Source of the DNA: Microbacterium sp. Gd 4-13
GTDB lineage: Bacteria; Actinomycetota; Actinomycetes; Actinomycetales; Microbacteriaceae
Direction of reading: 5' to 3'
DNA: 64,000 nucleotides
Assembly (NCBI RefSeq): GCF_003095395.1
Contig: NZ_QEIJ01000001.1
Span: 806,001-870,000, forward strand
Part shown: positions 24 through 60,436 of the stretch, piece by piece
Layout: the number at the start of each line of letters is the position of its first letter
Position numbering within the stretch: the first letter of the stretch is position 1
The notes under the pieces: model-generated
What the model was told of the DNA's origin: nothing
What the model saw: only the letters and a program-made list of their open reading frames with translations
Databases searched by the model: none
Program-made: the position numbers and the translations under genes

Positions 24-2276
24 GTGACCGAGATCGTTCCTCCTGCCGCGCAGACCTCCAGCCTGCGCCGCCTCGTGCCGCGCATCTTCTCGCGCGCCGC
101 GCGCCGCGATGACGTCGACAAGCTCGTCCAGACGGTTCGCACGCACCATCCCAAGGGCGATCTCGGGATCATCACCCGGGCGTACACGGTCGCCGAGAAG
201 GCGCATCGCGAACAGAAGCGTCAGAGCGGCGAGCCCTACATCACGCACCCGCTGGCCGTCGCGCAGATCCTCGCGGATCTCGGACTCGGACCCCGAGCCA
301 TCGCGGCGGCGCTGCTGCACGACACCGTGGAAGACACGGGCTATCCGCTCGACGAACTAGCCGCCGACTTCGGCGACGAAGTCGCGATGCTCGTCGACGG
401 CGTCACGAAGCTCGACAAGGTCAAGTACGGCGAGAGCGCTCAGGCCGAGACCGTCCGCAAGATGATCGTCGCGATGTCGCGCGATATCCGGGTGCTCCTC
501 ATCAAGCTCGCCGACCGCCTGCACAACGCCCGCACATGGGGCTTCGTGCCGCCCGAGAAAGCGGCGAAGAAGGCCACCGAGACGCTCGAGATCTACGCGC
601 CACTGGCCAACCGCCTCGGTATCCAGGCGATCAAGTCCGAGCTCGAAGACCTCTCCTTCGCGGTGCTCCATCCCAAGCTGTACGCCGAGATCGACAGCCT
701 CGTGAAGCAGCGCACACCGCAGCGCGAGCAGTACGTGCAGAACGTCATCGCCGCCGTCGACGCCGACCTGCGCGAGCTCCGCATCCGCGGTCGGGTGATG
801 GGGCGGCCCAAGCAGCTCTACTCCGTCTACCAGAAGATGGTCGTCCGGGGCCGCGAGTTCGACGACATCTACGACCTCATCGGCATCCGCATCCTCGTGG
901 GCACCGTGCGCGACTGCTACGCGGTGCTCGGCGCGATCCACGCGCGGTGGACCCCGCTTCCGGGGCGCTTCAAGGACTACATCGCCACGCCGAAGTTCAA
1001 CCTGTACCAGTCGCTCCACACCACGGTCATCGGACCGTCAGGGCGCACCGTCGAGCTGCAGATCCGCACGAACGAGATGCACCACCAGGCGGAGTACGGT
1101 GTCGCGGCGCACTGGAAGTACAAGGAGCGGATGGCCGGAGGCAAGACCGACTCGAAGTCGCTCGACGCCGATATGGCGTGGCTGGCGCACATCTCCGACT
1201 GGCAGGCCGAGACCGCCGACCCGAGCGAGTTCCTCGATTCGCTGCGATTCGAGATCGGCGCGAAAGAGGTCTACGTCTTCACGCCGAAGGGACGCGTGGT
1301 GGGCCTGCCCGCCGGCGCCACCCCGGTCGACTTCGCCTACGCCGTCCACACCGAGATCGGTCACCGCACCATGGGTGCGAAGGTCAACGGGCGCCTCGTT
1401 CCGCTGGAGTCCGAGCTCAAGAGCGGCGACGTCGTCGAGGTCTTCACCTCGAAGAACCCCGACGCCGGCCCCAGCCAGGACTGGCTCGGCTTCGTGCGCA
1501 GCACACGCGCCCGGAACAAGATCCGCGGGTGGTTCACGAAGGAGCGGCGCGAGGAGGCCATCGAGCAGGGCAAGGACGCCATCGCGCGCGCCATGCGTCG
1601 GCAGAACCTGCCGCTTCAGCGCCTCATGAACCAGGACTCGTTCTCCGAGGTCGCCCACCAGCTCAAGTACGAAGACGTCTCGGCGCTCTACGCCGCGGTC
1701 GGCGAGGGCAACGTCTCGACGCAGTCGGTCATCGAGAAGGTCACCGCGCTCGTCAGCGCCGGCGACACGTCTACGGGCCCCATCGACATCCCGCACGTGG
1801 GCCGTAGCCACGCTCCGCGCGGCGGCGATTCGGGCGTGCTCGTGCGTGGAGCCCCCGATATCCTCGTGAAGCTCGCGAAGTGCTGCACTCCCGTACCCGG
1901 CGACGAGGTCATCGGTTTCGTCACGCGGGGGAGCGGTGTGTCGGTGCACCGTACCGACTGCACGAACGTCACGGCTCTTCGCAACGACCCCGAGCGCATC
2001 ATCGAGGTCGAGTGGGCGCCGACGTCGAAGAGCGTCTTCCTCGTGCAGATCCAGGTCGAGGCACTCGACCGCTCGGCCCTGCTGAGTGACGTCACCCGGG
2101 TGCTCAGCGAGCACCACGTGAACATCCTCTCGGCCACCGTGTCGACCACGAACGACCGTCTCGCACTGAGCCGGTTCGTCTTCGAGATGGGCGACACCGT
2201 GCACCTCGACCGCGTCCTCAACGCGGTACGGCGCATCGACGCGGTCTACGACGTCTACCGCGTCACGACGTCCTGA
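24..2276 (+). CDS. rel: Bifunctional (p)ppGpp synthetase/hydrolase, RelA/SpoT family
   Basis: Makes and degrades the stringent-response alarmone (p)ppGpp in the cytoplasm. The 750-residue protein has the full long-RSH order. An HD hydrolase domain comes first (HDTVEDTGY near residue 100, then RLHNARTW). The synthetase domain follows ([18 protein letters not shown] near residue 325). A TGS domain ([19 protein letters not shown]) and a C-terminal ACT domain complete it. Both catalytic halves look intact, as expected for the single Rel enzyme of actinobacteria. The GTG start is preceded by GGAGG at 12-16. The 3' end overlaps the convergent gene at 2263-2802 by 14 bp, so the two transcripts are antisense at their ends. 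Confidence 0.96.
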
Positions 2277-2802
2277 CCGAGGCCAGCAGCATCCGCGCGC
2301 CTCTTTTGTGGGGGATGCTGCGGTGTCGGTCGAGCCACGCCACGGCCTCGTCGGCGTCATCGGGTCGGTCCTTCGCCCAGCGGCGCGCGAACTCCCGACT
2401 CGACGCCTCGGGGCTGCGTGCAAGATCGGCGAGCGTGCGGGCCGGGGTGCTCACCCGAATGTCGGCGATGCTCAGCAGGTCGGCACCCTCGATCAGCGGG
2501 TCGCGGTAGAGGAGCCTGCGCGAGACGACATGGTGCAGGCGTCTGTCGACGGCACGCTGGACGCTGTGGCGTGCGGGCGGTTCGTCGAGCCGCCCCAGGA
2601 TCCACGCCGCGCTCTCGTGGGTCGCCGCGAGCGCGGCGCCGAGCAGGTGCCCGACCGATGCCGCTCGCAGCACAACGGTCTCGACCACGTCAGCCGGGAT
2701 GTAGCCGTCGCCGAGCGCGACGAGGTGTCCGTCGAGGCATGCCGCCGAGAGCTCCGCCTCTGTCAGTCGAACACCCGGCAGGTACACGAACGGCGAGGGC
2801 AT
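2263..2802 (-). CDS. AbiEi-antitoxin-like / hypothetical protein
   Basis: A 179-residue protein of uncertain role. The stretch [19 protein letters not shown] followed by a helical C-terminus resembles the AbiEi antitoxin / DUF559-like proteins common in Microbacteriaceae. Residues 12-60 could be a small helix-turn-helix-like region. No toxin partner (AbiEii nucleotidyltransferase) is adjacent, so a toxin-antitoxin function is not supported here. The ATG at 2802 is preferred over the longer frame reaching 3015, because the extra 71 residues are arginine-rich low-complexity sequence running into the 3' end of the DUF349 gene. It is convergent with rel and overlaps it by 14 bp. Confidence 0.6.
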
Positions 2803-2890
2803 CCTCGAAGTCTGCCGCCCTCCCGGGCGCCGCGCTGCGGATCGAGGACGATTGTGGAGAACAGCCCGGCCGACCTGCCCGGGGGAGGAC

Positions 2891-4147
2891 TCAGCCTCCG
2901 ACGGCCCGCAACCACGCGCGACGCGCCTCGAGGGCCTCGGATGCCTTCGCCGCCGCACGCTTGTCACCGCGCGCGTTCGCCTCCGACACCTCCGCCTCCA
3001 GCTTGTCGATCGCATCGGTGAGCTGGCGCGTCATATCGTTCGTGCGCGCCTTCGTCTCGGGGTTGTTGCTCTTCCACTCGGCATCCTCGCGCGTGCGCAC
3101 GCTCTGCTCGATCTTGCGGAGCTCGTCGTCGAGGACGCGCTCCTGGTCTCGCGGGAAGATGCGACCGATCTCGTCCCAGGTGCGCTGGATCGCGGTGAGC
3201 GAGGCACGAGCTCGTGCAAGATCGCGCTCGTCGACGATCGGTGCGGCCTCGACGAGGAGGGCCTTCTTCTGCTCGATCTTCTCGCGGGAGTCCTCGACTT
3301 CGGCGGCCTCGCGCTCGGTGCGGGCGGAGTAGAGGGCATCGCCCGCTGCCTTGAAACGGGCCCACAGGGCGTCGTCGGCCTTCTTGCCGGCGCGGCCGGC
3401 GGCCTTCCACTGGTCGAGGAGGTCGCGGTACGAACCGATGCCGTCCTCGCCCCGGGGAGCGAGCGCCTCGGCACGCTCGACGAGACGCGTCTTGGCGTCG
3501 CGGGCGGTCTTCTGCGTCTCGTCGAGCTCGGCGTAGAACTCGCGGCGGTGACGGTCGACGGTGCCCCGGGCGTCGCGGAAACGTCGCCACAGCTGCTGCG
3601 CGAGCGACTTCGGGAGCCGCGGGCCGTTCTGCTGGTGGCTCTGCCACTGATCGAAGAGCGCCGTCATGTCGGCAGAAGCCTGCTTCCACTGCACCGTCTT
3701 GGGGTCGCGGGCGGCCAGCGCCTCGGCACTTTCGACCAGAGCCGTGCGCTCGCGCACCGCCTCGTCGACGGCTTCCTTCGCGGCGGCGGCCTCGGTCTCG
3801 GTCGCCTCGGCGAGAGCGCCGGTGAGCGTCTCGAGGCGCGTGAGCAGCGCGGCGAGATCGCCGACCGCCGAGGCGCCCTCGATCCGGCCGCGCAGCGTCG
3901 ATGCCGTGCTGCGCAGATCGGAGGCCGATGCGCCGGCACGGCGATGACGCGCCTCGAGGAGCGTCACTTCGCCGGCGAGGTCGGCGAACTTGCGCTCGTA
4001 GTAGGCGAGCGCCTCTTCGGCGGTGCCGTCGGGATACTGGCCGACCACACGCCAGCCGTCGGATTCTCGAACCGATACGGTTCCGTCTTCTTCGACGCGA
4101 CCCCACGGGGTCGGAGTTGTTTCGGGGAGGTCTGCGCCAGCAGTCAC
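2891..4147 (-). CDS. DUF349 domain-containing coiled-coil protein
   Basis: A 418-residue, strongly helical, charged protein with several DUF349 repeats. Each repeat shows a W plus K/R-rich helix, for example LFDQWQSHQQ, LLDQWKAAGRAGKK and TAIQRTWDEIGRIFPRD. DUF349 proteins are widespread in actinobacteria and their function is not firmly known. No signal peptide or membrane segment is visible, so it is probably cytoplasmic. The start is taken as GTG at 4147, which has GAGGG about ten bases upstream and gives the N-terminus VTAGADLPETTPTPWGRVEE. A longer frame to 4189 adds 14 unconvincing residues. Convergent with nothing, it runs alone on the minus strand. Confidence 0.8.
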   Translation of the reverse strand: MTAGADLPETTPTPWGRVEEDGTVSVRESDGWRVVGQYPDGTAEEALAYYERKFADLAGEVTLLEARHRRAGASASDLRSTASTLRGRIEGASAVGDLAALLTRLETLTGALAEATETEAAAAKEAVDEAVRERTALVESAEALAARDPKTVQWKQASADMTALFDQWQSHQQNGPRLPKSLAQQLWRRFRDARGTVDRHRREFYAELDETQKTARDAKTRLVERAEALAPRGEDGIGSYRDLLDQWKAAGRAGKKADDALWARFKAAGDALYSARTEREAAEVEDSREKIEQKKALLVEAAPIVDERDLARARASLTAIQRTWDEIGRIFPRDQERVLDDELRKIEQSVRTREDAEWKSNNPETKARTNDMTRQLTDAIDKLEAEVSEANARGDKRAAAKASEALEARRAWLRAVGG

Positions 4148-4231
4148 GTGTTGTTTACCCTCATCGCGGCTCGCGCCGTAGGCGTGCATGGACGGACCCG
4201 AGCCTAGTACGAGCGGCAGACGCTCGCAGGA

Positions 4232-4546
4232 TCAGGGCGTAGGTGTGGCGGCAGGCTCCGTCGCATCCGGCGCCGGCGTCGGCGTCGACTCGGTGCCGGG
4301 TGCCGCGCTCGTCGACGGTGTCGGCTCGCTCGAGGCGGTGGGCTCGGGCATTCCCGGACCGGCGGTGAAGTAGGCGACCTGCGCGCCGATGGCCGCGAGC
4401 ACGATGACCGCGCCGGCGATTCCTGCGATCAGGTTGTCGCGCGTGCGCCGCCGCTTCTGCGCCGCGTGCAGCTCCTGGCGGGCCTGGTAGATCCTCGCGC
4501 GCTCGCGAGCCGCTTTCGCGCTTCGGTCCTTGCCACCTGTCGCCAC
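4232..4546 (-). CDS. Small single-pass membrane protein, hypothetical
   Basis: A 104-residue protein. It has a basic, helical N-terminal region (residues 1-38), one hydrophobic segment (about 39-63, LIAGIAGAVIVLAAIGAQVA) and a Pro/Thr/Ser/Ala-rich tail of about 35 residues that would lie outside the membrane. No enzymatic motif is visible. The GTG start at 4546 has a clear GGAGGAG upstream. It is transcribed divergently from rarA, and similar small proteins occur beside rarA in related genomes (recalled, not searched). Function unknown. Confidence 0.7.
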   Translation of the reverse strand: MATGGKDRSAKAARERARIYQARQELHAAQKRRRTRDNLIAGIAGAVIVLAAIGAQVAYFTAGPGMPEPTASSEPTPSTSAAPGTESTPTPAPDATEPAATPTP

Positions 4547-4645
4547 GCGGGCCTCCTCCGTCCGGTGCGTCCGGGCGCGAGAAATCCTACGCAGGGCGGA
4601 TGCAGCGCACCAAACGCCAGCGGAACCGATGTCGTCTGTCGCGAT

Positions 4646-4658
4646 TAGCCTTTACCCG
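4646..4658 (+). promoter_or_regulatory. Leaderless-type -10 element for rarA
   Basis: TAGCCT at 4646-4651 is followed by six bases and then the GTG start at 4658. No Shine-Dalgarno sequence is present. The same spacing recurs at seven other genes in the window, which suggests transcription begins at the start codon. Confidence 0.45.
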
Positions 4659-5986
4659 TGACTCCCTCCGCAGCCCTGTTCCCCGGGCAGACGCCGTTGG
4701 CGGTGCGGATGCGACCGACGAGCCTCGACGAAGTCGCCGGCCAGGGCCACCTTCTTCGGCCCGGCTCACCCCTCGTCACACTGGCCTCCTCAGACGCGTC
4801 GAGCCCGGGCACCGCGGCCTCGGTGATCCTGTGGGGTCCTCCGGGCACCGGCAAGACCACGCTCGCCCAGGCGATCGCCCGGTCGTCGGGTCGACGCTTC
4901 GTCGAGCTGTCAGCGGTGACGGCGGGTGTGAAAGACGTGCGCGAGGTCATGCAGGAGGCCTTGACCCAGCGCGACCTCTACGACTCGTCGACGATCCTCT
5001 TCCTCGACGAGATCCACCGCTTCACGAAGGCGCAGCAGGATGCCCTGCTCCCCGGCGTCGAGAACGGCTGGGTCGTCCTGATCGCGGCGACGACCGAGAA
5101 TCCGTCGTTCTCGGTCATCTCGCCGTTGCTCTCCCGATCGCTCCTGCTCACCCTCCGACCGCTCGAAGACGACGACCTCGCGGGGCTCGTCGACCGCGCG
5201 GTCAGCGACCCCCGGGGGCTCGCAGGCTCCGTGGTGCTCGACGACGACGCGCGCAGCGCCCTCGTGCGCTTGGCCTCGGGCGACGCACGGCGCGCCCTCA
5301 CAGCGCTCGAGGCCGCAGCATCCGTCGCCCTCGACACCGACGACGCCGAACCCGCCATCACCGCCGATCACATCGCGCAAGCCGTCGACCGTGCCCTCCT
5401 GCGGTACGACCGGCAGGGCGATGAGCACTACGACGTCATCAGCGCCTTCATCAAATCGATCCGCGGATCCGATGTCGATGCCGCGATGCACTACCTCGCG
5501 CGGATGGTCGAGGCGGGGGAAGACCCCCGGTTCATCGCGCGCCGTCTGGTCATCTCCGCTGCGGAAGACATCGGCCTCGCCGACCCGCAGGCACTCCAGA
5601 TCGCGATCGCCGCCGCCGACGCCGTCGCATTCATCGGCATGCCGGAAGGGCGCATTCCCCTGGCCGAAGCGACCGCCTACCTCGCCACGACGGCGAAATC
5701 GAACGCGGCCTACAACGCGATCAACAGCGCGATCGCCGATGTGCGCGCCGGCGGTTTCGGTCGTGTGCCCCCGCATCTGCGCGACGCGCACTACCCGGGT
5801 GCGAAGCGTCTCGGCCACGGCAAGGGCTACCTGTATCCCCACGACAGCGACATCGGCATCGTGACGCAGCAGTACCTGCCCGACGAGCTGCGCGGGCGTC
5901 GCTACTACGACCCGACCACGCACGGGCAGGAGCGCGACATCTCTGCGCGCCTGGCCAAGATCCGCCGCATCGTCGACGGGGAATGA
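4658..5986 (+). CDS. rarA: Replication-associated recombination protein A (MgsA/RarA AAA+ ATPase)
   Basis: An AAA+ ATPase of the RarA/MgsA/WRNIP1 family that acts at stalled replication forks. The 442-residue length is typical. Residues near 50 carry Walker A GPPGTGKTT, and FLDEIHRF is Walker B. NPSFSVISPLLSRS is sensor 1 plus the arginine-finger region, and the C-terminal MgsA tetramerisation domain follows (for example RFIARRLVISAAEDIGLADP). The start is GTG at 4658, without a ribosome-binding site but with a TAGCCT element six bases away. It stands alone upstream of rpsD. Confidence 0.95.
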   Translation: MTPSAALFPGQTPLAVRMRPTSLDEVAGQGHLLRPGSPLVTLASSDASSPGTAASVILWGPPGTGKTTLAQAIARSSGRRFVELSAVTAGVKDVREVMQEALTQRDLYDSSTILFLDEIHRFTKAQQDALLPGVENGWVVLIAATTENPSFSVISPLLSRSLLLTLRPLEDDDLAGLVDRAVSDPRGLAGSVVLDDDARSALVRLASGDARRALTALEAAASVALDTDDAEPAITADHIAQAVDRALLRYDRQGDEHYDVISAFIKSIRGSDVDAAMHYLARMVEAGEDPRFIARRLVISAAEDIGLADPQALQIAIAAADAVAFIGMPEGRIPLAEATAYLATTAKSNAAYNAINSAIADVRAGGFGRVPPHLRDAHYPGAKRLGHGKGYLYPHDSDIGIVTQQYLPDELRGRRYYDPTTHGQERDISARLAKIRRIVDGE

Positions 5987-26309: not shown

Positions 26310-27866
26310 ATGCGCATCACAGGGCTCGGGCACGCGGGAATGTTCATCGAGACGGCGGGCGGCAGCATCCTCTGCGACCCTGTCATCGGTCCGAGCTTCT
26401 TCGGTTCGTGGTTCCCGTTCCCCGACAACCGGGGGCTCGACTGGGAGCGCTTCGGCAAGGCCGATTTCCTCTACATCTCGCACCGCCACCGCGACCACTT
26501 CGACCCGGCGCTGTTGCGCAAATTCGTGCCCACCAGCATCCGCGTGCTTCTGCCCGACTATCCGACGGACGACCTCGAGTCCGACCTGCGTGCGCTCGGC
26601 TACGACAACATCGTCTACACCCGCGCGGGGGAGCCACTGGAATTCGGCGACCTGAAGCTCATGGTCACCCCGCTGCGGGCTCCCAGCGACGGTCCGATCG
26701 GCGACTCGTCACTGAGCGTCGACGACGGCACCGCCAGCGTGCTGAACCAGAACGACTCGCACCCGCTGGACCTCGACAAGCTGTTCGCGTTCGGCAAGCC
26801 CGATGCGTACTTCACCCAGGTCTCGGGCGCCATCTGGTGGCCGATGGTCTACGACCTGCCGCAGGACGCCAAGCAGAACTTCGCGCAGCTCAAGCGCGAC
26901 GCGCAGAACAAGCGGGCGATGTACTACATCGACAAGGTGGACGCCGAGCACGTGTTCCCGATGGCAGGTCCGCCGATGTTCCTGCGCGAGGAGCTCTTCC
27001 GGTACAACGGAATGGGGCTCGAGAACGACTCGATCTTCACCGACCAGAGCCAGTTCCTCGCGCACATGAGCGAGCAGCGCCCGGCGCAGAAGGGCCACCT
27101 GTTCGTTCCGGGCACGCAGGTCGACGTGCACCACAGCGAGGTCGAGATCTCTCAGACGCTCTTCACCGACGAGGAGATCGAGCGGATCTTCACCGACAAG
27201 TGGGCCTACCTCGCCGAGCAGCGCGACAGCCGCCAGGCCGAGGTGCAGGCGGAGGAGGCCTCGCGGGCCGAGGTGCTGCCGCCCGCAGAGATGCTCGCCG
27301 CGATCAAGGAGTGGTGGGAGCCCCTCATCCGTCGGGCGCGCACCATCCGCAACGGCGTGGGCGGCAACGTGCGCTTCCGCATCGGCGAGCTCGACATGGT
27401 CGTGGACTTCCCGAAGGCCAAGGTGCGCGAGTACGCGGGGGAGGAGTGCGTGTACTGGTACACGATCCCCGCCGACCTCGTCTCGACCAACATCCGCGAC
27501 CACGAGATCGACTGGTCGAACTCGATCTTCCTGTCGATGCAGTTCTCGGTCGGCCGCAGCGGCAAGTTCAACGAGTTCCTCACGACGTTCCTCAAGTGCC
27601 TCTCACGCGATCGCATCGAGTACGTCGAGAACTGGTATGCCGAGCAGTCCGACCAGACCGAAGACGCCGAGATCGACGGCTGGACCGTGCAGCGCCGTTG
27701 CCCGCACCTGCGCGCCGACCTGACGAAGACCGGCAAGATCGAGGACGGCGTGCTCACCTGCAGCCTGCACGACTGGAAGTGGGATCTGACCAGCGGCAAG
27801 TGCCTCACGACCCAGGGCCACCCGATCCGCGCGAGCCTCGTCGACGCATCCGTCCCGAGCGCCTGA
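26310..27866 (+). CDS. Metallo-beta-lactamase-fold protein with C-terminal Rieske [2Fe-2S] domain
   Basis: A 518-residue two-domain protein. The N-terminal half is a metallo-beta-lactamase fold of the UlaG/NAPE-PLD-like type with the metal motif SHRHRDHFD (His58, His60, Asp62, His63). The C-terminal end carries a Rieske motif, CPH (Cys464, His466) and CSLHDWKWD (Cys484, His487), at standard spacing. A beta-lactamase fold plus Rieske domain recalls CMP-sialic acid hydroxylase, but there the Rieske domain is N-terminal. The substrate is unknown; an iron-dependent oxygenase or hydrolase role is inference. Its last 264 bp are antisense to the extended GIY-YIG frame. Confidence 0.85.
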   Translation: MRITGLGHAGMFIETAGGSILCDPVIGPSFFGSWFPFPDNRGLDWERFGKADFLYISHRHRDHFDPALLRKFVPTSIRVLLPDYPTDDLESDLRALGYDNIVYTRAGEPLEFGDLKLMVTPLRAPSDGPIGDSSLSVDDGTASVLNQNDSHPLDLDKLFAFGKPDAYFTQVSGAIWWPMVYDLPQDAKQNFAQLKRDAQNKRAMYYIDKVDAEHVFPMAGPPMFLREELFRYNGMGLENDSIFTDQSQFLAHMSEQRPAQKGHLFVPGTQVDVHHSEVEISQTLFTDEEIERIFTDKWAYLAEQRDSRQAEVQAEEASRAEVLPPAEMLAAIKEWWEPLIRRARTIRNGVGGNVRFRIGELDMVVDFPKAKVREYAGEECVYWYTIPADLVSTNIRDHEIDWSNSIFLSMQFSVGRSGKFNEFLTTFLKCLSRDRIEYVENWYAEQSDQTEDAEIDGWTVQRRCPHLRADLTKTGKIEDGVLTCSLHDWKWDLTSGKCLTTQGHPIRASLVDASVPSA

Positions 27867-28433
27867 ACAGTCCGCCCCGCCTCGGTCGCTGCCCCGGCCG
27901 CCCTCGGTCGCTGAGCTTGCCGAAGCGTCCGCGTCCCCCTTGGTCGCTGAGCTTGCCGAAGCGTCCGCGTCCCCCTTGGTCGCTGAGCTTGCCGAAGCGT
28001 CCGCGTCCCCCTTGGTCGCTGAGCTCGTCGAAGCGTCCGCGTCCCCCTTGGTCGCTGAGCTCGTCGAAGCGTCCGCGTCCCCCTTGGTCGCTGAGCTCGT
28101 CGAAGCGTCCGCGTCCCCCTTGGTCGCTGAGCTTGTCGAAGCGTCCGAGGACCGCGATCGCGCCAGGGCAGGCAGATCGACGCCTCTTCGCTCGATGAGC
28201 GCGGACTTCTTCGCCCGGCTCCATCCCTGAACCTGCTTCTCCCGCGCGAAGGCATCATCGATGCGGTCGAATTCCTCGGCGTACACCACCTCGACGGGCC
28301 GCCGTTTGCGTGTGAAGTCGGCAGCCCACCCGTCATCGTGGTTGTGCTGCCATACGCGCTCGTCGAGGTCGAGACCGGTGCTACCGGTGTAGAACGATTT
28401 GTCCGCGCATCGGACGATGTACATCCAGGGCAT
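27603..28433 (-). CDS. GIY-YIG (UPF0213-type) endonuclease with repeat-encoded tail
   Basis: The first 96 residues are a complete UPF0213/YhbQ-like GIY-YIG domain. WMYIVRC is the GIY strand, FYTGST the YIG strand, and Arg/His/Glu follow (ERVWQHNHDDG; AREKQVQGWSRAKKSALI). From about residue 97 the frame enters the 36-bp array and encodes seven copies of a 12-residue unit (DASTSSATKGDA or DASASSATKGDA). It then runs antisense through the 3' end of the Rieske gene to a stop at 27603. The functional protein may therefore be only the first 96 residues plus a disordered tail. ATG 28433 is preferred; GTG 28448 is also in frame. It is flanked on both sides by inverted REP-like arrays. It may be a single-strand or hairpin nuclease acting on those repeats, which is inference. 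Confidence 0.7.
   Translation of the reverse strand: MPWMYIVRCADKSFYTGSTGLDLDERVWQHNHDDGWAADFTRKRRPVEVVYAEEFDRIDDAFAREKQVQGWSRAKKSALIERRGVDLPALARSRSSDASTSSATKGDADASTSSATKGDADASTSSATKGDADASTSSATKGDADASASSATKGDADASASSATKGDADASASSATEGGRGSDRGGADCSGARDGCVDEARADRVALGREALAAGQIPLPVVQAAGEHAVLDLAGLRQVGAQVRATALHGPAVDLGVFGLVGLLGIPVLDVLDAIA
27906..28147. repeat. Left REP-like array: seven 36-bp tandem units
   Basis: Seven copies start at 27906, 27942, 27978, 28014, 28050, 28086 and 28122, spaced exactly 36 bp. Each core begins GGTCGCTGAGC and ends GAAGCGTCC. The arms CGCT and AGCG can pair around an 11-base centre, flanked by GG/CC with a T-T mismatch. Copies 1-3 carry TTGCC, copies 4-6 TCGTC and copy 7 TTGTC in the centre. 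The spacer CGTCCCCCTT is invariant. A partial copy (GGTCGCT) lies at 27884. The array is read in frame by the GIY-YIG gene on the minus strand. Confidence 0.95.
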
Positions 28434-28512
28434 AGGTCGAGGATCCACCGTTCGTCGCGAGCGCGGGGAGACCGAGGAGGAACCGTGGAGAATTCCGTGG
28501 GCGAGAAGACTC

Positions 28513-28521
28513 TGTGGATAA
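28513..28521 (-). other. Consensus DnaA-box sequence
   Basis: The + strand reads TGTGGATAA, the exact complement of TTATCCACA. It lies just inside the right repeat array, upstream of the GIY-YIG gene. A 9-mer can occur by chance and no second perfect box is nearby, so a replication role is not claimed. Confidence 0.3.
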
Positions 28522-28528
28522 ATGCCCC

Positions 28529-28775
28529 GGACCCTTCGACAGGCTCAGGGACCGACCACGCCACCCTTCAAGAGGCTCGGGACCGACCCGCTCCCATCCC
28601 GGACCCTTCGACAGGCTCAGGGACCGACCAAGCCACCCTTCACGAGGCTCGGGACCGACCCGCTCCCGTCCCGGACCCTTCGACAGGCTCAGCGACCGAC
28701 CAAGCCACCCTTCGAGAGGCTCGGGACCGACCCGCTCCCATCCCGGACCCTTCGACAGGCTCAGGGACCGACCCC
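28529..28775. repeat. Right REP-like array: 72-bp composite tandem units, inverted relative to the left array
   Basis: Four A elements (ACCCTTCGACAGGCTCAGGG and variants, ACCCTTC at 28531, 28603, 28675, 28747) alternate with three B elements (ACCCTTC at 28563, 28635, 28707, followed by RAGAGGCTCGGGACC or near variants). A-to-A and B-to-B spacing is exactly 72 bp. A elements carry arms CCCT and AGGG, except the third, which ends AGCG. On the minus strand they read GGTCCCTGAGC..., the same polarity the left array has on the + strand, so the arrays are inverted. The bases from 28148 to 28530 hold the GIY-YIG start and its upstream region. Short open frames through this array are considered spurious. 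Confidence 0.93.
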
Positions 28776-28846
28776 GGACCCTCCGACCAACGCAACGCCG
28801 GTCCTTCCACGGCGTCCGCGCACCCAAACACTGCTCTCTGACCGGG

Positions 28847-28852
28847 TAGGCT
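28847..28852 (+). promoter_or_regulatory. Candidate -10 of the pyr operon
   Basis: TAGGCT 60 bases upstream of the pyrR ATG and just after the right repeat array. It would give a leader of about 50 nt containing the PyrR-binding loop. Confidence 0.5.
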
Positions 28853-28880
28853 GGGGAGTGCACCACAGCAACCTTTAACA

Positions 28881-28903
28881 CCGTCCAGAGAGGCGGAGAA
28901 GGG
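28881..28903 (+). promoter_or_regulatory. PyrR-binding loop overlapping the pyrR ribosome-binding site
   Basis: GTCCAGAGAGGCGGAGAAGG (28883-28902) matches the known PyrR RNA motif (TCCAGAGAGGCTnnnAAGG). A short CCG/CGG stem closes the loop. It ends in the Shine-Dalgarno AAGGGAG just before the ATG. With uridine nucleotides bound, PyrR would sequester the site and block translation, as described for mycobacterial pyr leaders. Confidence 0.8.
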
Positions 28904-28911
28904 AGCGGCGG

Positions 28912-29445
28912 ATGAGCACGCGCACCGTGCTTCATGAGGCCGACATCGCCCGCGCACTGACTCGGATCTCGCACGAGATCCTCGAGTCCAACAAGGGCCC
29001 CGACGATCTGGTCGTCCTCGGCATCCCCACCCGCGGCGTCACACTCGCCCATCGCATCGCCGCGCTCGTCGGCGAGTTCGGCGGCGCGGAGATCCCCGTC
29101 GGAGCACTCGACGTGACCATGTATCGCGACGACCTGCACCGCAACCCCACCCGCACCCCGCAGCCGACCCAGATCCCGCCGGGTGGGATCGACGGCAAGG
29201 TCGTGGTGCTGGTGGACGACGTGCTCTTCTCGGGCCGCAGCATCCGTTCGGCCCTCGACGCCCTGCAGGACATCGGTCGCCCCGCGGCCGTGCGCCTGGC
29301 GATCCTCGTCGACCGCGGTCACCGCGAGCTGCCCATCCGTCCCGACTTCATCGGCAAGAACCTGCCGAGCGGGCGCGACGAACGGGTCAACGTGCGCCTG
29401 ACCGAGCACGACGGCGTCGAAGCCGTCACGATCGAGGGGCGGTGA
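28912..29445 (+). CDS. pyrR: PyrR bifunctional pyr operon regulator / uracil phosphoribosyltransferase
   Basis: A UMP-sensing RNA-binding regulator of pyrimidine genes with weak UPRTase activity. The 177 residues contain the PRPP loop [19 protein letters not shown] and the N-terminal [36 protein letters not shown] is characteristic of PyrR. It is the first gene of pyrR-pyrB-pyrC-carA-carB-pyrF, with its own binding loop at 28881-28903. The pyrB start follows eight bases after the stop. Confidence 0.96.
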
Positions 29446-58987: not shown

Positions 58988-60436
58988 ATGAGACGCGCCA
59001 AGATCGTCGCAACGCTAGGACCCGCCACATCGACCTATGAGAGCGTTCGCGCGATCATCGACGCGGGTGTCGACGTCGCCCGTCTGAACCTCAGCCACGG
59101 CGACTACTCCGTGCACGAGGGCAACTACGCGAATGTGCGTCGGGCTGCCGACGACGCCGGCAAGCCGGTCGCGATCCTCGTCGACCTGCAGGGGCCGAAG
59201 ATCCGCCTCGGTCGCTTCTCCGACGGCCCGCACGAGCTCGCCGCCGGTGACATCTTCAAGATCACCGTCGAAGACATCGTCGGTACCAAGGAGATCGTGT
59301 CGACGACCTTCAAGGGCCTGCCGCAGGACGTGAAGCCCGGCGACTACCTCCTGATCGATGACGGCAAGGTGCGCGTCCAGGTCATTGAGACCGACGGCGT
59401 GACCGTGACGACCGAGGTCATCGTCGGCGGACCGGTCTCGAACAACAAGGGCATCAACCTCCCGGGCGTGGCCGTCAACGTGCCCGCGCTGTCGGAGAAG
59501 GACGAGGACGACCTCCGCTGGGGTCTGCGTACCGGCGCCGACCTCATCGCGCTCTCGTTCGTCCGGGATGCGTCCGACATCGAGCGCGTTCACGTGATCA
59601 TGGCCGAAGAGAACCGCACGGTTCCCGTCATCGCCAAGATCGAGAAGCCGCAGGCGGTCGACAACCTCGAGGCCATCATCGACGCGTTCGACGGCATCAT
59701 GGTCGCCCGCGGCGACCTCGGCGTCGAGCTGCCGCTCGAAGCGGTGCCGATCGTTCAGAAGCGCGCGGTGGAGCTTGCCCGCCGCATGGCGAAGCCCGTC
59801 ATCGTCGCGACGCAGATGCTCGAGTCGATGATCACGAACCCCGTGCCCACCCGCGCCGAGACCAGCGACGTCGCCAACGCCGTCCTCGACGGTGCCGACG
59901 CCGTCATGCTCTCGGGCGAGACCAGCGTCGGACAGTATCCGGTCGGCGTCGTCGAGACGATGGCTCGGATCGTCGCCTCCACCGAAGAGCACGGTCTGGA
60001 CCGCATCGCGCGTCTGACGACCAAGCCGCGCACCCAGGGCGGGGCCATCACGCTCGCCGCGATCGAGGTCGCCGAGTTCGTCGAAGCGAAGTACCTCTGC
60101 ATCTTCACCGAGTCGGGCGACTCCGCGCGCCGTATGTCGCGCCTGCGCTCTCCCATCCCGATGATCGCGTTCACGCCCGAGCCGGGCATCCGTCGCCGTC
60201 TCGCCCTCACCTGGGGCGTGCGATCGACCCTGGTCGAGCACGTCGAGCACACCGACATGATGTTCCTGCAGGTCGACGACTACTTCCTGTCCAACGACCT
60301 CGCGAAGGTCGGCGACAAGGTCATCGTCATCTCCGGTTCCCCTCCCGGAATCGCGGGGTCGACCAACGACCTGCGCGTACACAAGATCGGCGACGCCGTC
60401 CACGGCGCAGCGCCCATCTACCAGCGCGAAGCCTGA
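58988..60436 (+). CDS. pyk: Pyruvate kinase
   Basis: Transfers phosphate from PEP to ADP. The 482 residues have AKIVATLGPATSTYESVRAI, DLQGPKIRLGRF, the catalytic VIAKIEKPQAVDNLEAIID (Lys) and GIMVARGDLGVELPLEAVP, plus VATQMLESMITNPVPTRAE. The C-terminal allosteric domain is complete. ATG 58988 has GGAG ten bases upstream; the open frame to 58910 is upstream read-through. A strong terminator follows. Confidence 0.97.
   Translation: MRRAKIVATLGPATSTYESVRAIIDAGVDVARLNLSHGDYSVHEGNYANVRRAADDAGKPVAILVDLQGPKIRLGRFSDGPHELAAGDIFKITVEDIVGTKEIVSTTFKGLPQDVKPGDYLLIDDGKVRVQVIETDGVTVTTEVIVGGPVSNNKGINLPGVAVNVPALSEKDEDDLRWGLRTGADLIALSFVRDASDIERVHVIMAEENRTVPVIAKIEKPQAVDNLEAIIDAFDGIMVARGDLGVELPLEAVPIVQKRAVELARRMAKPVIVATQMLESMITNPVPTRAETSDVANAVLDGADAVMLSGETSVGQYPVGVVETMARIVASTEEHGLDRIARLTTKPRTQGGAITLAAIEVAEFVEAKYLCIFTESGDSARRMSRLRSPIPMIAFTPEPGIRRRLALTWGVRSTLVEHVEHTDMMFLQVDDYFLSNDLAKVGDKVIVISGSPPGIAGSTNDLRVHKIGDAVHGAAPIYQREA

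Follow-up and report, generated by a model that had tools for sequence, protein, structure and literature searches.

The subject of the present analysis is a small open reading frame (ORF) for a GIY-YIG nuclease, together with the tandem repeats surrounding it, in a stretch of 64,000 nucleotides (nt) from Microbacterium sp. Gd 4-13 (RefSeq assembly GCF_003095395.1, contig NZ_QEIJ01000001.1, positions 806,001 to 870,000 of the forward strand), which as a whole is called the window below and to which all coordinates relate. The gene lies between two inverted tandem arrays of a 22-bp repeat that is dispersed through the host genome and that accompanies one group of related nucleases across the genus, and neither nuclease nor repeat is found at the corresponding site in the 16 relatives compared there. 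The locus is probably best understood as an Ssn-like nuclease with its own target repeats in a moving cassette, the long repeat-encoded tail at the end of the nuclease frame being a by-product of array growth.

The cassette and its insertion site

On the downstream side of the gene, Tandem Repeats Finder (TRF) reports an array at 27901..28147 (+ strand) with a 36-bp unit present 6.9 times (98% matches, score 445). The core of each 36-bp unit is a 22-bp palindrome-like repeat, GGTCnCTGAGCnnGTCGAAGn'G (in which n and n' pair), and pattern matching places copies of it on the + strand at 27906, 27942, 27978 (one mismatch each), 28014, 28050, 28086 and 28122. The upstream array, at 28526..28773 (− strand), has a 72-bp unit repeated 3.4 times and holds four exact matches to the same pattern, all on the − strand, at 28532, 28604, 28676 and 28748; with seven copies (+) downstream and four (−) upstream, the nuclease gene is therefore flanked by inverted arrays. 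At up to 3 mismatches the core pattern has 12 matches in the window; 100 shuffles average 0.25, and none of them reached 12, which puts the array beyond chance. A single two-mismatch match at 60067 is doubtful.

The nuclease ORF itself occupies 27603..28433 on the − strand, giving 276 amino acids (aa) from the ATG at 28433; a GTG at 28448, from which the frame is open to the TGA at 27605-27603, would give 281 aa, and the ATG is the likelier start because most relatives begin with MPW or MAW. The GIY-YIG catalytic domain (PF01541) is matched at 28206..28430 (− strand; residues 7-81 of the 281-aa reading) with an E-value of 4.6e-13 and 49.7 bits, against a curated cut-off of 22.6. Counting from the ATG, the domain takes up approximately the first 96 residues, with the tail following from residue 97. 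Across 26 aligned sequences, the window protein among them, the YI, YxG, R and E columns do not vary; these correspond to the conserved catalytic positions of the superfamily, two Tyr, an Arg and a Glu. The relatives of solved structure are 1zg2 (BH0048; E 3e-9) and 1ywl (EF2693; E 3e-7), both GIY-YIG proteins of the UPF0213 type that by sequence have the same domain as the window nuclease, the match spanning the domain alone. NCBIfam yields no family for the ORF at E <= 0.01.

The entire array-nuclease-array unit is contained in the 1045-bp interval (27867..28911) between a gene for a 518-aa protein with MBL-fold, SCP2-like (Rv3818-like) and Rieske regions (26310..27866, + strand; the Rieske gene below) and pyrR (28912..29445, + strand). 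A Rieske match was present in 106 relatives, of which 29 were fetched, 16 having pyrR in the stretch and 13 not; in all 16 of those with both genes in the fetched stretch, the interval holds neither nuclease nor repeat. It is short (123-290 bp) in nine of them (L115, L119, L120, L123, L124, L129, L131, L138 and L142), and 520-1093 bp long with different content in the other seven, while a relative with no pyrR within its stretch (L139) carries three two-mismatch repeat copies beyond the Rieske gene. The array-nuclease-array unit is thus an insertion between the Rieske gene and pyrR in this genome. Neither of these genes lies beside any of the other 14 genus loci of the same nuclease group (group A, defined below) within the approximately 1.5 kb fetched per side, and some group-A loci share sites of their own (L007, L008, L009 and L011; L010 and L013; L012 and L017). 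As for a phage or plasmid source, the two collections searched gave 16 phage and 10 plasmid records, all below 60% identity, and such a source was set aside.

A separate case of insertion was seen in a metagenome bin named Akkermansia (L075), where a nuclease of this family, flanked on either side by copies of the repeat, lies in frame within a type I restriction R subunit of EcoAI type (ORF 2044-4857 of the oriented locus), in its helicase region, replacing a 12-residue linker that is found in the intact homologues L217 and L218.

Dispersal of the repeat and its pairing with one nuclease group

In the 3.43-Mb genome of Gd 4-13 the repeat occurs in 81 copies at up to 2 mismatches, while the reversed pattern used as a control gives 0; a stricter form of the pattern has 47 exact matches. 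Positions 5 and 21 form a Watson-Crick pair in 75 of 77 copies (C-G 41, G-C 33, A-T 1), and 45 of the 66 copies outside the window, in 29 fetched stretches, lie between predicted ORFs, the remaining 21 being inside them (as judged with a rough ORF caller).

A homologue of the nuclease is present in 52 of 119 genus genomes; in wider samples one occurs in 75 of 299 genomes of the family and in 20 of 297 of the order. Two of the genus loci have domains that recur in records named M. commune and M. aerolatum, in keeping with Microbacterium as the genus. Sixty-two of the 64 genus matches were placed on a tree (the two left out, in G088 and G042, were weak and ranked second or third), on which clade B comprises 34 proteins from 33 genomes (support 96) and clade C comprises 13 (support 95). 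The remaining 15 genus proteins, including that of the window, were taken as group A (best matches, above 120 bits; some genomes hold two kinds). Copies of GGTCnCTGAGCnnGTCGAAGn'G number 6-318 (median 70) in all 15 group-A genomes, as against a median of 0 in the other 104 (p 6e-10). A second repeat, GGTCGTTGAGCGAG, absent from the genome of Gd 4-13, shows no enrichment with group A (p 0.52, over the 119 genus genomes) and strong enrichment in the 33 clade-B genomes (median 36 vs 0, p 8e-13), which are enriched weakly for the first repeat (p 0.04); the 13 of clade C are enriched for neither across the same 119. The reversed pattern of the first repeat, used as a control, matched 0 times in every genome, and that of GGTCGTTGAGCGAG gave 0-2 matches per genome.

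Repeat copies flank the gene on both sides in 15 of 15 group-A genus loci, and are strictly inverted in nine. A search for inverted flanks that used no motif, with a threshold of at least 2 above the best of 30 shuffles, was passed by 11 of the 15 (not by L012, L014, L015 or L017); in several loci the same-orientation score equalled or exceeded the inverted one, and many of the far loci gave matches to parS-like or other repeats. Beyond the genus, the type of repeat flanking the gene follows the protein tree: for 143 loci from many phyla, 38 changes suffice where shuffled labels need a mean of 89.1 (0 of 200 shuffles being as low), and for the window's repeat type alone there are 12 changes as against 35.8 shuffled. 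These loci were drawn from 154 candidates, 10 having been dropped with the domain duplicated elsewhere and one for failing a match-length filter.

Two observations on other flanking repeats may be recorded here. Another Microbacteriaceae GIY-YIG subclade (L020, L021, L022, L028, L029, L035, L041, L077, L173 and others) lies among several GTTTCACGTGAAAC-like palindromes (at most 1 mismatch), which presumably match the parS consensus. A repeat one base longer, TTCGACnnnGCTCAG (at most 2 mismatches), is found in Geobacter relatives, Cyanobacteria and Acidobacteria (L064, L068, L082, L084, L086, L088, L089, L090, L091, L099, with a small array, and L108), where, read in a different frame, it yields C-terminal tail peptides resembling GFDSAQP.

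Several points must be set against the proposed pairing of enzyme and repeat. Group A is not joined as a clade in the genus tree, and in a larger tree appears as a weak grouping (86); the trees in general are built on about 90 columns and have few strong forks. The comparison between genomes ignores phylogeny, and the first-repeat pattern was defined on this very genome; similarly, the flank motifs were defined after viewing the same loci that they score, and the 143-locus count keeps as states 19 loci with none of the motifs and 13 labelled parS. Orientation is mixed in six of the 15 group-A genus loci (L005, L007, L014, L015, L016 and L018). A single 22-mer folds no better than its shuffles (z -0.30 to 0.50), so that pairing of the stem rests on covariation. 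Lastly, the first repeat reaches 6 copies or more in 12 of 67 homologue-free genus genomes (e.g. 131 in G069 and 71 in G057) and in nine of 27 with clade B only (e.g. 101 in G063), so the copies either outlive the nuclease or do not need it.

The homologue-free genomes with many copies might suggest that the repeat is an ordinary family of repetitive extragenic palindromes (REPs) or minisatellites gathering after genes, with roles in RNA stability, termination or supercoiling, and that the nuclease is a bystander. The largely intergenic position of the copies would fit such an explanation, as would the existence of REP families without a known dedicated transposase (PMC3733652). However, within one genus there are two nuclease groups, each paired with a different repeat, the flanking repeat type follows the protein tree, and copies stand on both sides of the gene throughout the group-A genus loci, all of which make a bystander role improbable. 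The genomes with 41-131 copies of the window repeat and no group-A nuclease (G069, G057, G063, G114, G049 and G030) may have lost the enzyme or may use another one, or, in G030 (77% complete), the gene may fall in a missing stretch.

The open frame and the repeat-encoded tail

The initial annotation had described a GIY-YIG frame that stays open through seven 36-bp copies, each read as 12 residues, and then continues antisense through 264 bp of the Rieske gene. As a description of the sequence this is accurate: TRF counts 6.9 copies, and there is no stop before 27605. The four peptides of one type and three of another that had been described are likewise there, translation in the nuclease frame giving DASTSSATKGDA four times, DASASSATKGDA twice and a final DASASSATEGGR (of DASASSATKGDA type). 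Residues 97-276 thus consist of repeat-derived tail followed by the antisense of the Rieske gene, the last 264 bp of the ORF (27603..27866, − strand) overlapping the Rieske coding sequence (26310-27866, +) exactly at its 3' end, with the codons in register. Without a stop before 27605, translation of the tail is to be expected if the gene is expressed.

An open frame, however, means little at this locus, because all three frames on the gene's strand (and five of the six altogether) are stop-free through the array. Over the 3' end of the Rieske gene, too, the antisense frame in register runs for 86 codons or more without a stop in 29 of the 30 genus loci compared, namely the window's own and those of 28 of the 29 relatives whose fetched stretch contains no nuclease (the exception being L115).

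A comparison was also made with relatives that do carry the nuclease. The genome collections hold one genome per species, so copy number was compared at orthologous loci of sister species. Four of these (L007, L008, L009 and L011) share a locus with flanks 81-95% identical; the copies downstream number respectively 3, 3, 2 and 1, and the ORF lengths are 156, 116, 146 and 111 aa (on the numbering of the window's GTG reading). The minisatellite-like variability that had been suggested between strains is thus seen, in both copy number and stop, between sister species. More widely, of the 14 genus relatives in the nuclease group, eight have a frame that enters a copy, like that of the window, four (L006, L010, L013 and L018) stop before any copy, and two (L012 and L015) end inside an inverted one. 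Close relatives with a stop directly after residue 96 had been named, together with a lack of expressed tail peptides, as evidence that would count against a tail, and this is found in part, the four early stops falling 3-6 codons past the point where the tail starts. At loci with the window's repeat type, moreover, the dominant array period is a multiple of 3 in just 6 of 19 arrays. Together with the variable stops and copy numbers, this indicates that the arrays are not under coding constraint, and the periods favour reading the array as DNA target sites rather than as coding sequence. What the initial annotation had left out of account was the dispersal of the repeat through the genome, the inverted upstream array and the pairing with a nuclease group.

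It could still be argued that the tail is functional, at least the first unit (ASTSSAT) serving as a C-terminal extension that the array has lengthened. In six genus loci (L007, L008, L009, L011, L005 and the window) the first copy has its start at exactly nt 308, counted from residue 1. Among loci with the first copy inside the ORF, 15 of 17 (counting the window) read it in the STSSAT frame, as against 5 of 17 with that phase where the copy follows the stop (Fisher p 0.0013), although these loci are not independent. This phase was scored at 34 of 41 loci labelled T1, those in the STSSAT frame coming from Actinomycetota, Bacteroidota and Chloroflexota. Against a function stand the four relatives that stop before any copy and the two that stop inside an inverted one, the differences in stop and copy number at a single orthologous locus, the array periods, the second copy of L009 (which is read in a different frame), and the openness of every gene-strand frame in any case; in addition, six Fibrobacter loci that lie outside the 34, and hence outside the 17, have a degenerate copy in another frame within the domain. 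The frame bias is confined to the first copy, and we attribute it to shared ancestry, the ORF having overlapped its 3' site for a long time, though that single unit may conceivably play a part in the protein. A functional tail is therefore unlikely, and a functional long tail in particular was rejected, the open frame being uninformative and the stops variable among relatives.

Some individual loci illustrate how repeat and reading frame can meet. In eight (L005, L007, L012, L014, L015, L016, L072 and L098) the repeat supplies the stop codon, because the TGA of the nuclease lies in an oppositely oriented copy, which has 4 mismatches in L012, L014, L072 and L098. In the Fibrobacter loci (L048, L056, L059, L079, L096 and L097) the end of the conserved domain contains a repeat-like copy with 1-2 mismatches, translated as F(D/G)(K/R)LTDL in a different frame from STSSAT. 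In Flavobacterium undicola (L094) the nuclease ORF stays open through the repeats into a long ORF which, judged by eye, looks like a precorrin methyltransferase (CobJ-like), making one frame of 604 codons (about 2944-4755 of the oriented locus).

The array also lies between convergent genes, and might therefore act mainly as RNA, hairpins protecting or ending the nuclease and Rieske transcripts so that the array is retained. The 36-mer does fold better than its shuffles as DNA (z -1.8 and -2.7), but such a role leaves the inverted upstream array, the pairing with a nuclease group and the empty site unexplained, and is very unlikely to be the principal one.

Related systems and a possible mechanism

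The Ssn family, reportedly described in Nature Communications in 2025, is said to comprise site-specific single-stranded nucleases of the GIY-YIG superfamily, among them the Ssn of Neisseria meningitidis with its NTS repeat. The resemblance to that description lies in a small stand-alone GIY-YIG protein, in a dispersed repeat that also surrounds the nuclease gene, and in the association of different homologues with different repeats, to which two groups with two repeats, and the 143-locus tree, correspond here. A candidate cognate repeat that is both dispersed and gathered round the gene is likewise found here, by association. As possible differences from Ssn loci, the window locus has inverted tandem arrays on both sides, a unit absent from the same site in relatives, and an ORF overlapping its 3' site.

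Coding minisatellites and low-complexity tails are resembled in that 36-bp units are read as 12 residues. They differ in that arrays of the window's type show no frame constraint on their periods, tail length is not conserved, and each unit is built round a repeat whose dispersed copies fall for the most part outside predicted ORFs; frame and length are not kept among relatives, the bias being found in the first copy alone.

There is also a likeness to REPtrons, in which (PMC3733652) small imperfect palindromes that are dispersed and mostly intergenic flank the gene of a DNA-cutting enzyme, the REP-associated tyrosine transposase (RAYT). The window repeat is palindromic, dispersed and mostly intergenic in the same way (75/77 paired, 45/66 intergenic), though the 22-mer gains nothing over its shuffles in folding. 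The enzyme in the window, however, is a GIY-YIG nuclease and not a Y1 HUH transposase, and the repeat lacks the GTAG tag; Di Nocera et al. (2013; PMC3733652) distinguish REP families tagged GTAG or CGTC, the latter apparently without a dedicated transposase. That the repeats are REPs spread by a RAYT with the GIY-YIG gene carried along can be dismissed as barely credible, in spite of the resemblance to REPtrons, because a search of the Gd 4-13 genome for Y1_Tnp (PF01797) gave 0 matches at E <= 0.001 while finding them in 5 of 14 control genomes, and the consensus has no GTAG tag. A limited search of the literature found nothing linking GIY-YIG genes with REP-like repeats.

If the locus is indeed an Ssn-like nuclease with its own targets, it would be a compact cassette, in which a stand-alone GIY-YIG gene sits between two inverted tandem arrays of its cognate 22-bp site. 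By analogy with Ssn, the most likely action of the enzyme is to recognise and nick the repeat in single-stranded form, as at replication forks or in incoming DNA; binding and cleavage, specificity for the single strand, and the mobility of the cassette and its means of spread are inferred. Repair or slippage at nicked sites could then generate tandem arrays, and sites on both sides could render the cassette mobile, with single repeats able to move too. Common ancestry would have left one site at the 3' end of the coding sequence, and in this genome that site would have grown to about seven 36-bp copies; with no stop before the next gene, the ORF would continue into the antisense strand of the Rieske gene. 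The long tail would thus be a by-product of the growth of the array at the 3' site and of the lack of a stop codon. What had appeared as a puzzling protein tail becomes a clear case of a nuclease accompanying a dispersed repeat, and the two nuclease groups with two repeats in one genus are ready-made pairs of enzyme and substrate.

A bolder proposal, which we put forward tentatively and do not regard as the likelier outcome, is that the GIY-YIG nuclease drives an unrecognised kind of minimal mobile element, cognate repeats bounding a cassette of 0.3-1 kb that the nuclease moves, with single repeats as non-autonomous passengers. If this were true, the element would be a REPtron without a transposase, and the overlap of the ORF with the right-hand site would be an ancient feature of it. 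Movement of the cassette by its own nuclease would help to explain which enzymes spread REP-like repeats in RAYT-free genomes, and for some REP families lacking a RAYT such a nuclease might supply the enzyme that is missing.

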